38,775 nt of DNA, taken from NCBI RefSeq assembly GCF_000264995.1, contig NW_006767442.1, forward strand, positions 1,508,876-1,547,650, written 5' to 3'. Position 1 is the stretch's first letter. Every line of letters begins with the position of its first letter. Positions 17,043 through 33,889 of this stretch are shown in pieces. The notes below the pieces were generated by a model, which saw only the letters and a list, made by a program, of their open reading frames with translations, had not been told where the DNA came from and ran no database searches. Origin of the DNA: Punctularia strigosozonata HHB-11173 SS5. Taxonomy: Eukaryota > Basidiomycota > Agaricomycetes > Corticiales > Punctulariaceae. Position numbers and translations under genes: made by a program.

Positions 17043-18333
17043 GTGGTACGCGAGGATGATGCAACAGGGACGCAATTGAGGACGTGGAGTCCTCGTCCGA
17101 CAGGTTTAAATGGACTCACTGAGTGGTTTTTAATGCATAGGTAGACAGGAACCTCCGATAAATCGGGATCTCTGATCCGGGTTGTCTTGACAGTAAGTAA
17201 TGAAGCCTTTCGCAGAGGGGATGGCAGTCAAAGACAGGATAAGCGATTGAAAAGGAAATCGCCCGCTTTCCTTACGTCTATCTTGATATGAATACATCGT
17301 CAACGTGGTCCATGGCTGTAAGTAGGTGCAATGTCCCACCCGTGTAAACTATAAACGGGTCTCTTCCGACCGTGAAGTTCATAGGTCGGTGGCTTAACGA
17401 ACTGGACTTGGAAGACCACACCGTACAGTATGAACCACGCATATAAACATCTAATACACGACGTAAGTACCGCCATGCTGCGCCCATGGCATTAGAACTG
17501 AGATTAGCTTTGCACCTTGTGGTCACCACCCTCTTCGGAGCCTTCGCGATGACAAACAGTGTTGCCTTGCGTCATTGGATGATAACTAGTCAACTCGACA
17601 TTCAAGGATAATCCCCGCTCGAAAGTAGCGTAAGTAGTCGAGGGCGACGCGGATCTGAGTAGCACGTGGAGCAAAGATAAGAGACAGACAATGAGACATA
17701 GGAAGAGAGAGCTGGTGCTGCGCCACCTGACTTGAACTCCGATGAGGTCGTTATGCCCGCTCAAGAACAGGCTCGCATGTCCCTGAGAGCTGCCCTGATT
17801 TCTGATATCCGGTCGGGACGGCCCAGAACAGTCGCGGCCGGTGGTGGCGGAGGCGCCCGAAGTTGTGGAGTCAACTTTGCCCGAGTTCACCAGAAAGCTA
17901 CCTGAATTTCTCGCAGAGCACGGTGGTGTCACTGTCAATTATGGTGCTTCGGCGAGTGCCAATAAGTAAATATCGCATTCAGGGCGTACTGAAAAGTGAG
18001 AACATCGGTCGAGAGGAAACTTTGGTTGCCAGTTTTGCCGCTCCATTGTGTGAACGACTGTCTTCACGCTCTTGAGCCTGCCTGGGGAGACAACTTCGCC
18101 GCGGACACGCGGGCTTCTCCGTTGCTCGCGGATTTAGCCACCGTCACTCCAGGCGTTGCGATCGCCAACCCATATACCTCATCCCAACAAAATCCATTAA
18201 TGATTGGGAAGAAGTTGCGTAGCGTCCGCCGATACAACTGAGTTCGAAATCTAATTGAATGTCCCCCAAGCACTATGACTGCGGCCTACTCGCGCCCTGA
18301 CCTGAGCAAATCAGCATGCACGCAAAATCTTTG
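17043..18333. other. Upstream region of the monooxygenase; possible small exon
   Basis: On the minus strand an ATG at 17476 opens about 40 residues, to about 17360, that look protein-like: a hydrophobic AWFILYGVVFQVQF helix followed by VKPPTYELHGRKRPVYS and a possible GTGGGA donor. I could not extend it. Near 18195-18334 the DNA resembles 11040-11160, the 3' flank of the UbiA remnant. Nothing else is recognisable. Confidence 0.3.
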
Positions 18334-19826
18334 TCAGGCCAGTGGGTTTTGTGGCGAGTTATGGAGCGCGACGATATAGTCAGCGGTAAATCCAACGAAT
18401 ACCGTGGCACCAAGCCAGAACCCATTGCGATTAAACTGAGTAATACGAGGGTGAGCTCAGATGTGCCTGAATCATGTTGGATCACAGAGCGACTGACCGT
18501 CTTCCAGCAACTCACGGGGTTGTCCAGGTTTACTTGCCAAATTGCCTGGGCAAGAAGAAATGCGGTGATACACACAGAGATTGCGTAATAGATGCCGCAG
18601 CTGTCGTTTTCGATTCCGCATGTTAAGAGAGATAGCACAAGGATGCATCCGAAGATGGCGAGTAACGGTTTGGTGTATTGGGCGAAAAGGAGTGCGGTCG
18701 ATTTTACGCCGGCCTGAACGTCGTCACGCTTGTCTTGACAGGCGTATATAGTGTCTTGTGGCAGAGGGGACGGGGGTCAAACGAGAGAAATATATAAAAT
18801 CGGAGTAATGTAACGCTCTCACCGTACCAAAGAGTCCAACTAAAATAGGCGAATGAGCGGCTTTGTCATCTAACAACACGCGAATGACACTGACAACCAT
18901 GCCCCTACACCGAGAATAGTAGCCTGGCGGGTAATCACGCCCGTCATGACAAGAGACGCCATCGGTATACCACAATTCATAGCGAGCCCTTTTGCCATGT
19001 TCAATCTAGGGAAGATGATAGATACCGGGTTCCTCACCCAGCCAAGCCTGGGGCCAATAGGTAACTCTCTTCATGAGCGGATATAGGCCTGGAAGAACAA
19101 ATATAGAAACTAGCCCTAAGACCCAACTGGTGCACAAATCAGGCCACGGATGATCACGACGTTACGTTCAAGGATGTACTCACGCATGCGAATGCAGATT
19201 CCTGTTTATGCAATTCAATGCCCATAGATGAATAGATAGAAACACCAACGCCCCCCGCACCGATATCCTACCGTCCGCTATGGGTCGGTGCGTAGTGCGT
19301 TCTATCGGGTGCTGAGCACGTTGCACGCGAAGGTCGATGGCTCGACCTACCGACTTGACGATCGAACTCGCGATCAAGTATGTCATTCCATATGCATCCT
19401 GCACCTATAATAGCATGTCAGAACAGAAACAATATGACTTGCACTACAAGGCTTACTGAGAAATCAGGAATGAGTGATACTGAATTCATCGCAAAGAGAC
19501 TGATATACCTGTGTCCCAAGCATGCGCCAACGAAGCCGTTCCATAAATATATCGCGGTTTGGTATACAGGAAGATGTATGATTCGGGCGATCATCATCAC
19601 GGCCCACGCTTGAAGATACGGATGATTAGTGGAGGAGGCCGGGAACGGACAATACACACCATACGGCCAAAAGAGCACCATAGTCCCGGCAAATTTGTCA
19701 ACTCGGGTGAGTTCAATCTGATAAAGGTGTGAGATATCAATAATACACGTAGCACCGCTGAAAGACTCGTACCCAAGGTCCGAGCCTACGCCGCAGGTCC
19801 AAACATGAACACTTCGAAGCGAGCAT
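18334..19826 (-). CDS. UbiA-family membrane prenyltransferase
   Basis: Predicted multipass enzyme that transfers an isoprenoid diphosphate to an aromatic acceptor (4-hydroxybenzoate polyprenyltransferase superfamily). Exons: 19773-19826, 19660-19717, 19509-19608, 19351-19404, 19184-19301, 19038-19126, 18898-18988, 18823-18839 (17 nt), 18498-18754, 18334-18435; about 312 residues. Motifs: IELTRVDKFAGTM, FWPYAWA, the first Mg-diphosphate site NDILDREFD, VERTTHRPIADGRIS, LYPLMKRVTYWPQ, the second site DTIYACQDKRDD, GVKSTALLF, and WKTFNRNGFWLGA at the end. The start is inferred from a short exon ending GPW|IELTR. Oddity: the 19509/19404 junction is one base out of frame with GT-AG sites (it needs CAC AG|T GCA); a weak GTCTCT donor just downstream could restore frame. 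It may be a secondary-metabolism enzyme or a COQ2 relative; the remnant at 11160-11575 and the neighbours favour the former. Confidence 0.82.
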
Positions 19827-24185: not shown

Positions 24186-25614
24186 ATGTCCGCACCAGCA
24201 CCAACGTCTGATGGGATTGGCATAGCCAACTTGCCGAACCAGGTGAGCCAGTGCCTCACTGTCATGTTTTCGTTTTCCCAACTTACTCGTTCGCGTCCAG
24301 CGGCACAAAATCGTCGCCAAGCGCGGCGCCCACTTCACCATCATGGTGGTCGGTGAGTACTGTCATTTCATTCGGAGCTATCGTAGCTGAATTGGGCGTC
24401 TAAGGCGAGTCCGGGTTGGGTAAGACGACACTCATCAACACGCTCTTTTCGACCGAGCTCTCCGCGCCCAAGAACTACAACAGTCGTCACCACAAACAGC
24501 TCGACAAGCTCACCGAAGTTGACATCATCAAGGCCGAGCTCGAGGAAAAGCAATTCAAAGTCAAGCTTACCGTTATCGATACGCCGGGTTTTGGCGACTA
24601 CGTCAACAACCGCGACTCGTGGGCGCCCATCGTCGACTTCATTGACGACCAGCACGAGGCCTACATGCGCCAGGAGCAACAGCCTCAGCGTCACGAGAAA
24701 ACGGATTTGCGCGTGCATGCGTGCCTGTATTTCATTCGTCCTACCGGACACACGTGAGTGACGGTTTACCTGTATGACAGTGTGGGGGAATAACACGCGT
24801 TCAACAGTCTCAAGCCGTTGGACATCGAGATTATGAAGCGCCTCGGCACGCGCGTCAATCTCATCCCGGTGATTGCGAAGGCGGACACGCTCACTCAGAA
24901 CGACCTCTTCACCTTCAAGTCGCGCGTTCGCGAGGTCATTGCCGCACAGGGTATCCGGATCTACCAGCCCCCCATCGACCCCGAGGATGAAGCTCAGGCT
25001 GAATACGGGCGCATTCTCCTCGAGTCGATGCCCTTCTCCATCATTGGCTCCACTGAGGATGTTCGCACCGCCGACGGTCGCACTGTCAAGGGTCGTGAAT
25101 ACCTCTGGGGTGTTGCCGAAGGTACGCACATCTTTCCACTCACAGACGGCCTGTATATTGATCTTGCGATCCCATCAATAGTCGAGAACGAAAACCACTG
25201 CGATTTCCGCAAGCTTCGCTCGCTCCTGATCCGCACGAACATGCTCGACCTGATCTCGTCGACGGAGGAGCACCACTACGAGAACTACCGCCAGCAACAG
25301 ATGGAAACCCGCAAGTTCGGCGAGCCCAAGGTGAAGAAGCTCGACAACCCCAAGTTCAAGGAGGAGGAAGAGGCGCTTCGCAAGCGTTTCACCGAGCAAG
25401 TCAAGGCGGAGGAGGCTCGCTTCAGGCAGTGGGAGCAACATGTAAGCCTTTCTTCGTTGCTCCAAGCGCAGAAGCTAACTCACCACGCTCTCAGCTTATC
25501 GCCGAGCGCGACCGCCTCAACAAGGATCTCGAGATGGCGCACAGCGCGATCAAGGGGCTCGAAGCGGAGCTGGACACTCTCCAAGTCGGCTACAGGGGTT
25601 CAGGCAGGAGGTAG
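24186..25614 (+). CDS. CDC12: Septin, Cdc12 class
   Basis: GTP-binding cytoskeletal protein that assembles into heteromeric septin filaments at septa, hyphal tips and the bud neck equivalent. Exons: 24186-24242, 24301-24352, 24405-24753, 24808-25121, 25182-25441, 25495-25614, giving 383 residues in frame throughout. Visible: the GIGIANLPNQ N-terminus typical of Cdc12, the P-loop GESGLGKTT, the switch DTPGFGD, VDFIDDQHEAYMRQEQQP, the AKAD base-binding motif, the septin element with the invariant WGVAE, HCDFRKLR, and a C-terminal coiled coil (KRFTEQVKAEEARFRQWEQ and LIAERDRLNKDLE). Intron 4 (25122-25181, 60 nt) is stop-free and a multiple of three, so a single-frame reading would wrongly insert 20 residues after VAE. 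High third-position GC suggests a strongly expressed core gene. Assignment to Cdc12 rather than Cdc3, Cdc10 or Cdc11 rests on the N-terminus and the tail. Confidence 0.93.
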
Positions 25615-25979
25615 ATGCGTACGTTTCACTACTAGGACACCACCGCCTACGGACTCGGTGGTTTCGCGTGGTATATACCCTCTCTCTTGGAACTCCGGTT
25701 TCCCGGCTTGCACCAGTACTCTTCGAACCTTATTTAGTGGATTGTAATCGTCCTCGACAGACATGCCGTTCCTTACGACTATTTCTCGTTTGTTCCAATC
25801 ATTGCGGAATTGCATTGGTATACGTACGTGAGAAATGCTCGCAGATGGGAGATAAAATCGAGCATCGATAATCCGGGTGCATGTATGTACGACCTTGCTC
25901 CGCAGAGGCGGAGGTCGTTACAGTACAGTACGGTATCGTCGGAGCAGGAGCAACGTGTCGCCTCGTGCAAGACCAGGTG
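25615..25979. other. Intergenic region between convergent genes
   Basis: Separates the 3' ends of the septin and the repeat-containing mitochondrial-type gene. No gene or clear terminator motif seen. Confidence 0.5.
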
Positions 25980-31133: not shown

Positions 31134-33889
31134 ATGCTGGACACAGTGCTACTCGCTCTGGCTTTGTGTGTTTGCCTTGTGCGATCCTCCACCGTGCATT
31201 ACACTGCACGGGTCGCAAACCACTTTCTTCAGCCGGACGGTTTCAATCGAAGGTACAAGTTTCTGTCCCTTGGAGAAGAATGGACATCTACTGACGAGAG
31301 AACAACGCATAGTGGAGTCTTGGTCAATGGCCAGTTTCCTGCCCCCTTAATATCTGCTACGAAAGGAGATCAACTATCCGTAAGCAGGGATACACATCGC
31401 ACAATCGCCCACTGATGTCTATCATTTTAGGTCAACGTGCTGAACTCTCTGACGAACTCCACCATGGAACTGGGGACCTCGGTGGTTTGTGTTCAACTAG
31501 AATCTCCCCTTTAATGTGTTTCAACTCTTGGATAGCACTGGCACGGGATACTCCAGCACCGTACAGCATACGCAGACGGTGTGGCATTCGTCACGCAATG
31601 CCCCATTCGTCCCCAGAAGTCCTTCATGTCAGTTTGACCGCATTACTGGGCGCAGCTACACGTTGATCATAGATGCATTCAGGTACAACTTCGGGCTGAC
31701 GAACCAAGCAGGGTACATTCAACGTTTCCCTATCTCCATATTGAGCTGACATGCGTATCAGGACATTCTGGTATCACTCTCATATATCTTTGCAATACTG
31801 CGATGGCCTTCGGTGAGCCATATAACGGTAGATTTACCTCTGCTCTTATGATTAACCGTCACTGATGCAGAGGACCTCTTGTAATCTACGGTAACCTACC
31901 TCTTGTGCTGCGCTGAGTATAGCTGATCCTATATCAAAGACCCCGACGATCCACACCGCACTCTCTATGACGTAGACGATGGTGCGTGAATGTGTTGGCC
32001 AGCTATGCGGGTGACTCATCTCGTAAAATATCAGAGAGCACAATCATAACCATCGGCGATTGGTAAACAGGATATGCTATGCGGTGCATCTACGCTTCAT
32101 GAGCCTGACGATGCACCTATCTAGGTATCACCTAACGGCCGCGTTGTCAGCTGAATTACTCCAGTACGAGCGTCCCCAAGGTTTGAGCGGTGTAGTTTAA
32201 CTAAACTCAACAGGCCTCCGGACACGACGGTGATAAATGGTCTCGGGCGGTATGCCGGTGGGCCTCTGGTGCCTCTTTCAATCGTCAATGTCCAGCACGG
32301 TACTCGCTATCGTTTCCGCGTATTGAACATCGCGTGCTTCCCGTTTTACACGTTTTCCATCGACGGGCACAAGCTCACCGTCATTGGAGCGGACGGGACC
32401 TCGGTTCGGCCGGTGACGGTTGATTCTATCGATATCCATGCGGGTGAGCTCGGCTGCCTATATCGACTGAATCTCATTTGGTCCTGAACGTTGGGAATAG
32501 GGCAGCGTTACTCTGTTGTGGTAAGCTAGGCCATCGTCCTATGTCTGCTTCAATTGCACAGTCGTTCCAGGTTCACGCCGATCAGCCCGTCTCGAATTAC
32601 TGTATGTCCAGGTAATGACCATACCACCAGACCCCATACTAAGACATAAACGCAGGGATAAGAGCAAATCCGAACCTCGGCACTCTTGGATTCGAGAATG
32701 GTATGCTTCAGTTTGTAAATTATATCAGTACTCACTAAATGACACTTTAGGAACGAACTCGGCAATACTCAGATACCACGGGGCGCGACCGGTCGATCCG
32801 GATACCACCGCAACCACGACCAATTTACTGAAAGAGCAGGATCTGCGAGTGAGTACGGCATTTCTTGTCGATCTCATAGTCCTAACGTTTTGTCAGCCTC
32901 TAGTCCCCTCATCGGTGAGTCGCCCTGGTGCTCACTATCCTAATGTTCTTGTACTTACTCGTCACATAGATTGGGGACAAGGTCGATGTCGCTCTAAACC
33001 TCGATATTGAAGAGGTGATGACCCTCGGGTTCTTGTTGCATTAATGAAGGAACAGACTGAGCGAGCTTGATATAGGCTGGAGAGTTTGGTAATTTCACCG
33101 TGAATGGCGTACAATACAATCCACCTCCTTTGCCCGTTCTCCTTCAAATCCTCAGCGGCAAGTTCTCCGCGAGCGACCTGCTTCCTGAGGGCAGCGTCTA
33201 CGTTTTGCCTCGGAACAAGCTGGTCGAGATATCTATGCCAGGGCAGGGACAATTTCCTGTAGGTGGTTATCACTCTGTGAGCATTGCGGCTCTGACCCTA
33301 CCGTGACTGAGCAGCATCCCGTACATTTGCATGGGGTAAGCGTCAACATTAAGGTGGCCGCACAGCTCACAAGAACTGCCCCGAATAGCACTCTTTCGAA
33401 GTAATTCGTAGCGCCGGGTCGTCCGAGGTCCATTTGATTGACCCTCCCGCTCGGGATGTGGTCAGTTTGGGAGCAGCTTCAGACAATGTAACGATCAGGT
33501 ACGTCAAAGAGTATCCACAGATAGCGGGCCACATCATGATGCTACGTATTTTGCCCTGTCAGATTCAGAACCGATAATCCAGGACCGTGGCTACTTCATT
33601 GGTGAGCTTGGAACATCCTGCCCCTGGCCACGCTGACCTATGCAATGCAGCGTAAGTTGAGCGAAATATCCTACCGCATTCGGCATCCTGCTCACACACC
33701 GTCGCCGTAGCACATCGACTTCCATCTTCAAGCGTGCGTTGCGCTGACATTTCGTGCATGAAATTTCTGACTGACCTCTGTACTAGAGGGCTTGCGATCG
33801 TTCTCGCCGAAGCCCCCGAGGATCAAGTTACCGGTCCGGAATCTCAAATCATCCCTCCGTCTTGGAAGCAGCTGTGCGAGGAGACATGA
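31134..33889 (+). CDS. Secreted laccase (multicopper oxidase)
   Basis: Blue copper oxidase that oxidises phenols and reduces O2 to water, exported by an N-terminal signal peptide (hydrophobic core [11 protein letters not shown]). Exons: 31134-31252, 31313-31379, 31431-31484, 31536-31627, 31683-31712, 31762-31812, 31871-31890, 31940-31981, 32035-32062, 32125-32163, 32214-32443, 32501-32520, 32571-32601, 32656-32700, 32751-32848, 32897-32914, 32970-33014, 33076-33258, 33315-33335, 33389-33498, 33563-33601, 33651, 33711-33733, 33787-33889; 502 residues, in frame. All four copper signatures are present: [24 protein letters not shown], and [12 protein letters not shown] across the last four exons. 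The axial position ten after the Cys is Leu, a lower-potential type than Phe. The 1-nt exon is needed to keep HCH in frame. Exon number is very high for the family. Confidence 0.88.
33651..33651 (+). other. Candidate 1-nt micro-exon of the laccase
   Basis: A single C lies between a TGCAG acceptor (with a CTGAC branch motif 13-17 bases upstream) and a perfect GTAAGT donor. Adding it between exons ending CATTG (33601) and starting CACATCGAC (33711) restores codons for His-Cys-His-Ile-Asp and the frame of the rest of the gene. Confidence 0.6.

Follow-up and report, generated by a model that had tools for sequence, protein, structure and literature searches.

A putative single-nucleotide exon in the copper-ligand cysteine codon of a Punctularia strigosozonata laccase gene

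Can one nucleotide, bounded on both sides by introns, serve as an exon and complete the codon of a copper ligand? Single-nucleotide exons are known but extremely rare, and a laccase gene of the basidiomycete Punctularia strigosozonata HHB-11173 SS5 raises this question at position 33651 of the DNA stretch analyzed here (hereafter the window: 38,775 nt, positions 1,508,876 to 1,547,650 of contig NW_006767442.1, from assembly GCF_000264995.1, which comprises 33.57 Mb in 32 contigs). Judging from the genomic sequence, the C at 33651 is very probably a genuine exon of one nucleotide, included as a rule and contributing the third base of the copper-ligand Cys codon.

The gene spans 31134-33889 on the forward strand and reads open from ATG to TGA across 24 exons, modeled by hand reconstruction and spliced alignment. 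On this strand, exons 1-8 lie at 31134-31252, 31313-31379, 31431-31484, 31536-31627, 31683-31712, 31762-31812, 31871-31890 and 31940-31981; exons 9-16 at 32035-32062, 32125-32163, 32214-32443, 32501-32520, 32571-32601, 32656-32700, 32751-32848 and 32897-32914; and exons 17-24 at 32970-33014, 33076-33258, 33315-33335, 33389-33498, 33563-33601, 33651, 33711-33733 and 33787-33889. Hand reconstruction yielded 1506 nt and 501 aa, with 23 GT-AG introns of 48-64 nt. Spliced alignment, which covers 31212-33847 of this gene only, placed the end of exon 3 at 31484 instead of 31481, regaining the residue before HWHG and giving 1509 nt and 502 aa; both versions of the coding sequence are multiples of three. 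The alignment also favored 33276 over 33258 as the end of exon 18, with the same reading frame either way, and 33258 was kept because the resulting intron is of usual length. Neither choice has any bearing on the one-base exon.

The encoded protein matches the Pfam families Cu-oxidase_3, Cu-oxidase and Cu-oxidase_2 (PF07732, PF00394, PF07731), its top PDB match is 9gly_A (E 1.1e-193), and its closest structural relatives are PDB laccases. It combines three cupredoxin domains with all four laccase copper-ligand motifs (HWHG, HSH, HPVHLHGH and HCHIDFH), as expected of a basidiomycete laccase, an AA1 multicopper oxidase. The laccases of this genome align over their full length with PDB laccases, which are presumably basidiomycete enzymes.

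The last of the four motifs is encoded across the junction in question. Exon 21 (33563-33601, +) holds the end of an Arg codon and 12 residues and stops after the TG of the Cys codon (...CATTG). Intron 21 (33602-33650, +; 49 nt, phase 2) runs from GTGAGC to TGCAG and contains a match to the branch-site pattern CTNAC, CTGAC at 33633-33637 (+; offset 31), whose A is 14 nt upstream of the intron's 3' end. Exon 22 would be the single C at 33651 (+), the third base of the Cys codon in HCHIDFH, followed by intron 22 (33652-33710, +; 59 nt, phase 0), which runs from GTAAGT to CGTAG and has its own CTNAC match, CTCAC at 33691-33695 (+; offset 39), with the A 16 nt before the intron end. Exon 23 (33711-33733, +) starts CACATCGAC (CAC ATC GAC) and encodes HIDFHLQ, then the GC of an Ala codon. 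One base is thereby enclosed between an AG at 33649-33650 and a GT at 33652-33653, and both flanking introns are complete. A preliminary description had placed the exon end at 33601, the lone C at 33651 and the next exon start at 33711, with a CTGAC...TGCAG acceptor and a GTAAGT donor, all of which proved exact on re-checking.

With the C included, the spliced junction reads CATTGCCACATC (the genomic letters at the exon 23 boundary are GTAGCACATC), the codon becomes TGC, the motif reads HCHIDFH and the coding sequence is divisible by three. Joining 33601 directly to 33711 instead produces CATTGCACATC, in which the frame is lost after LLHC and a 507-residue product without HCHIDFH results, and retention of intron 21 gives LLHW and then a stop. 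These outcomes bear out the earlier claims that a direct join breaks both frame and motif, and that the C restores the motif and makes the 24-exon model a multiple of three (1506 nt, or 1509 nt as revised). Enumeration of single introns (GT-AG, GC-AG and AT-AC; 30 nt or longer; placed between 33566 and 33732, with the adjoining exon edges fixed) returned 104 candidates, none in frame and open, which rules out a one-intron solution using a different donor or acceptor. Requiring introns of at least 40 nt and allowing a middle exon of 1-30 nt leaves four open two-intron GT-AG solutions, of which one, the C at 33651, restores HCHIDFH; the other three, which drop the HIDFH motif or residues flanking the Cys, were rejected. 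Skipping, retention and alternative introns all lose either the frame or the motif. The arrangement was also rejected as a stwintron, given that both introns are complete GT-AG introns and that loss of all 109 nt breaks the frame. Stwintrons, as described in the literature, resemble the laccase pair in that two introns lie in close contact and are (in the laccase, would be) removed in sequence, but in a stwintron the inner intron lies within a splice element of the outer one and no exon is kept, whereas here the introns are complete and a base would be kept.

The splice sites around the C are of good quality. Scored with matrices trained on the gene's other 21 introns (with the exon 3 end before revision), introns 21 and 22 reach 13.7 and 13.1, the other 21 introns ranging from 7.4 to 15.9, and the donor of intron 22 has the top donor score among all 23. 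The strength of this donor may offset the absence of AG before it in the spliced form. Such a configuration seldom arises by chance. When the 109-nt stretch was shuffled 200,000 times with its dinucleotide content preserved, keeping the first 6 and last 5 bases fixed and requiring both resulting introns to be at least 35 nt long, AG-[C/T]-GT appeared in 5,610 shuffles and with as good a score in 2; in 100,000 synthetic 109-nt introns assembled from the interiors of real introns, it appeared in 1,401 and never with as good a score. The window holds 244 AG-N-GT sites on its two strands, two of them of the form YAG-N-GTAAGT, at 33651 and 17629. The site at 17629 reads TAG-C-GTAAGT.

These tests bear directly on the possibility of an assembly error, according to which one C of ...gtag followed by CCACATCGAC was dropped, the true genome reading ...GTAGCCACATC, and a single 109-nt intron occupies 33602-33710. 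A one-base deletion at the acceptor would give exactly such a frame problem, and a genome search gave just one match to the 109-nt stretch. Moreover, the undivided intron's score of 8.3, though low, exceeds those of the gene's two weakest introns (7.4 and 8.0), and splice strength by itself is not enough to dismiss it. Intron length, however, does not favor an undivided intron: the 179 introns modeled across 12 laccases (11 paralogs plus the gene in the window, with introns 21 and 22 counted) measure 46-87 nt, with a median of 53 and none of 90 nt or more, and a 109-nt intron would exceed all of them. An assembly error would further require an acceptor-C-donor of equal quality to have arisen by chance, at the 2 in 200,000 seen among shuffles, and no other frameshift is needed in the 12 laccase models, which total 17,301 coding nt, given a GC-AG intron in one of them (L058, G000:C1:4599600-4603700). 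We therefore regard a lost base in the assembly as very unlikely. The intron in L058 is an apparent GCGAGT...ATACAG intron after an exon ending GCATTTGTAG; the frameshift that this gene seems to carry, under GT-AG splicing only, is accounted for by it and was dismissed.

Spliced alignment agrees with the one-base exon, within limits. The exon at 33651 was recovered with 12 of 12 queries (a PDB laccase, the 4a2d chain, and each of the 11 paralog proteins), and the aligner placed it without prior instruction. Masking the middle donor or acceptor cost 40 score units, and the fallback path ended inside the intron. As a control, 177 one-base deletions were simulated (700 nt on each side, PDB query, best path scored), producing 7 paths with an exon of at most 2 nt, 32 with a frameshift and 138 of other kinds. 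By coordinate arithmetic, five of the 7 tiny exons are the one at 33651 itself, lying in view, and two are false, in L058 (1 nt) and L061 (0 nt). With a distant query, the aligner also put a false 1-nt exon into L063, in a stretch that is one continuous open frame, and L063 was for this reason left out of the intron counts and controls. Since the aligner yields false tiny exons, its output alone is no proof, and more reliance is placed on the exhaustive enumeration and on the chance tests. Taken with the alignment, they support the core of the original reading, a 1-nt exon, well at the level of sequence.

Is the exon shared with related genes? Genome searches revealed at least 12 further multicopper-oxidase loci; 11 are laccase paralogs with 53-56% identity to the window protein, and L063 (G000:C6:585800-590200) is a distant oxidase. 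HCHI is present in all 11 laccase paralog models and HCHID in 10. In L060 (G000:C9:133200-137500), the last copper motif is HCHIEPH, not HCHIDWH or HCHIDFH. None of the 11 paralogs has an intron within or directly beside the Cys codon, and the 1-nt exon is absent from all 11. The preliminary description had stated that related laccase genes are often interrupted by an intron at this Cys codon and resume with CCAC in the following exon, a generalization that the 11 paralogs of this genome do not share. The nearest match in the genome to such an intron is found in L063, one base earlier at the same Cys codon (CATT^GCCAC, T^GC). In addition, the window gene has 23 introns, of which 11 lack an exact counterpart in the 11 paralogs and 7, among them introns 21-23, lack one within 9 nt, in a comparison where some paralog models stop short of the 5' end and shared 5' introns are perhaps under-counted. 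The branch leading to the window gene is long (0.78), the median for end branches being 0.2. The window laccase is a divergent copy rich in private introns, and its long branch conceivably reflects relaxed constraint.

Such divergence invites the idea of a decaying gene, in which a true one-base deletion at the exon boundary killed the laccase and the signals of the 1-nt exon are coincidental. The long branch and a closest paralog in the genome at only 56% identity are in keeping with decay. The remainder of the gene is not, as the other 23 exons all have open frames and GT-AG sites, the copper motifs are all present, and coincidental signals of this quality are improbable (2 of 200,000 shuffles, 0 of 100,000 synthetic introns), leaving this the least likely of the alternatives weighed here and one to which we give very little credence.

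How might a one-base exon be spliced? On the reading that the C is an included exon, introns 21 and 22 would be ordinary short fungal GT-AG introns, each recognized by intron definition. A single base would have to accommodate both U1 on the intron 22 donor and the factors at the 3' site of intron 21, so the introns would be removed successively. Whichever intron left first, a normal site would remain for the other, either TTGC/GTAAGT or GCAG/CCACATC. Skipping, by contrast, would pair sites 109 nt apart, beyond the modeled range of the family, and this length constraint would favor inclusion. The splice signals, the frame, the motif and the lack of alternatives are there in the DNA; the actual splicing, its sequential order and the length argument for inclusion are what we infer. 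For Arabidopsis APC11, the authors considered exon definition across one base very unlikely and argued for sequential intron definition (PMC4674806).

Alternatively, the C might enter only part of the transcripts, with skipping or retention giving an inactive laccase and the 1-nt exon acting as a switch. The two products to be expected, a 507-residue shifted protein without HCHIDFH upon skipping and a stop after LLHW upon retention, would suit such a role, and a potato invertase construct with its exon cut to 1 nt is cited as having 33% of transcripts skipping it (in PMC4674806). However, the sites on both introns are good, the intron required for skipping is unusually long and no feature hinting at regulation was noticed in the sequence, and we see little likelihood in regulated splicing, about as little as in an assembly error.

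Returning to a normally included exon, its origin can be considered in terms of its two introns. The absence of paralog counterparts for introns 21 and 22, together with the long branch, would most simply place both as gains in the gene's own lineage. One possible origin, proposed at the outset, is that a second intron entered one base inside a boundary that already existed. For the Fusarium CYP621A gene, a different course has been put forward, in which a boundary base was lost and a cryptic 1-nt exon then rescued the gene (PMC12940212). Both the inserted-intron and the loss-and-rescue origins fit the data here; long introns are missing from this family, which makes a pair of ordinary introns somewhat more plausible than a cryptic exon inside one long intron. 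Copying of intron 22 from intron 21 was rejected, their similarity score of 8 ranking 46th among 253 intron pairs and being equaled in 22 of 100 mononucleotide shuffles. A repeated intron element was likewise rejected, the sole match of the 109-nt stretch in the genome, in a search that ignores very common words, being the stretch itself. A bolder combination, that a lineage-specific burst of intron gain in this fast-diverging laccase set two new introns one base apart at the Cys codon, that this is the first known basidiomycete case and that production of active enzyme hinges on strictly sequential splicing policed by the narrow range of intron lengths, is one that we put forward tentatively and hold to be rather doubtful as a whole.

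Transcript-backed 1-nt exons have been reported for plant APC11 and VPS55 (PMC4674806, PMC8831610) and for Fusarium CYP621A, the latter being, according to its authors, the first for a fungal gene (PMC12940212). The Fusarium case is similar to the laccase in several respects as described in that report: a nuclear fungal gene has one base between two short AG/GT-bounded introns, the base completes the codon of a conserved motif, a direct join breaks the frame, and the stretch as a whole is roughly double the length of a typical intron (PMC12940212). It differs in being an ascomycete P450 in which a G forms the middle base of a Gly codon, whereas the laccase has a C as the third base of a Cys codon, and in being backed by 20 Fusarium orthologs and SRA reads (PMC12940212), whereas the laccase exon is predicted from genomic sequence. 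APC11 and VPS55 likewise place a one-base exon between two spliceosomal introns, yet they are plant genes, conserved across land plants and verified by RT-PCR (PMC4674806, PMC8831610). The VPS55 exon is followed by a conserved GTRAGT donor, comparable to GTAAGT in the laccase, and its inclusion is alternative in some lineages (PMC8831610). Fungal mitochondrial rnl and placozoan mitochondrial cox1 also have one base between two introns, but both are organellar, and the rnl introns are group II (PMC12308204 and PMC5436844, respectively). Among the open-access literature matches listed, we found no one-base exon in a laccase or in a fungal nuclear gene besides CYP621A, and no earlier report of one from a basidiomycete or affecting the codon of a metal ligand.

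Single-nucleotide exons have been described in few families of nuclear genes, to which the laccase would add a basidiomycete example and one that falls in a metal-ligand codon, in an enzyme studied for industrial use. The 171 nt from 33563 to 33733 offer a compact natural substrate for asking which intron leaves first and why skipping loses. The window laccase is likely to come out broken or truncated from gene callers and standard read mappers; for APC11, default read mapping is reported to miss 1-nt exons in some cases (PMC8831610).

Other small exons and neighboring genes were seen along the way. In P450 genes of the basidiomycete Phanerochaete chrysosporium, exons as short as 6 bp have been reported (PMC1184071). 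Among the laccase paralogs, L062 (G000:C14:752300-756500) has a modeled 11-nt exon, CACTGGCATGG, at 1252-1262 of the reverse complement, encoding essentially HWHG alone and flanked by introns of 51 and 56 nt, and L056 (G000:C13:368800-372800) has a modeled 7-nt exon, CTTTCGG, at 1630-1636 with introns of 55 and 56 nt on either side. On a single contig, G000:C13, there are five laccase loci between about 60 and 372 kb, three of them (at about 60, 93 and 106 kb) within 50 kb. Within the window itself, a Pfam scan of 10 of the 43 listed open frames left eight without a match at E 0.01; the other two are stop-to-stop open frames, one at 18276-18776 (-) matching UbiA prenyltransferase (E 5.9e-11) and one at 24794-25744 (+) matching septin (E 1.8e-47).
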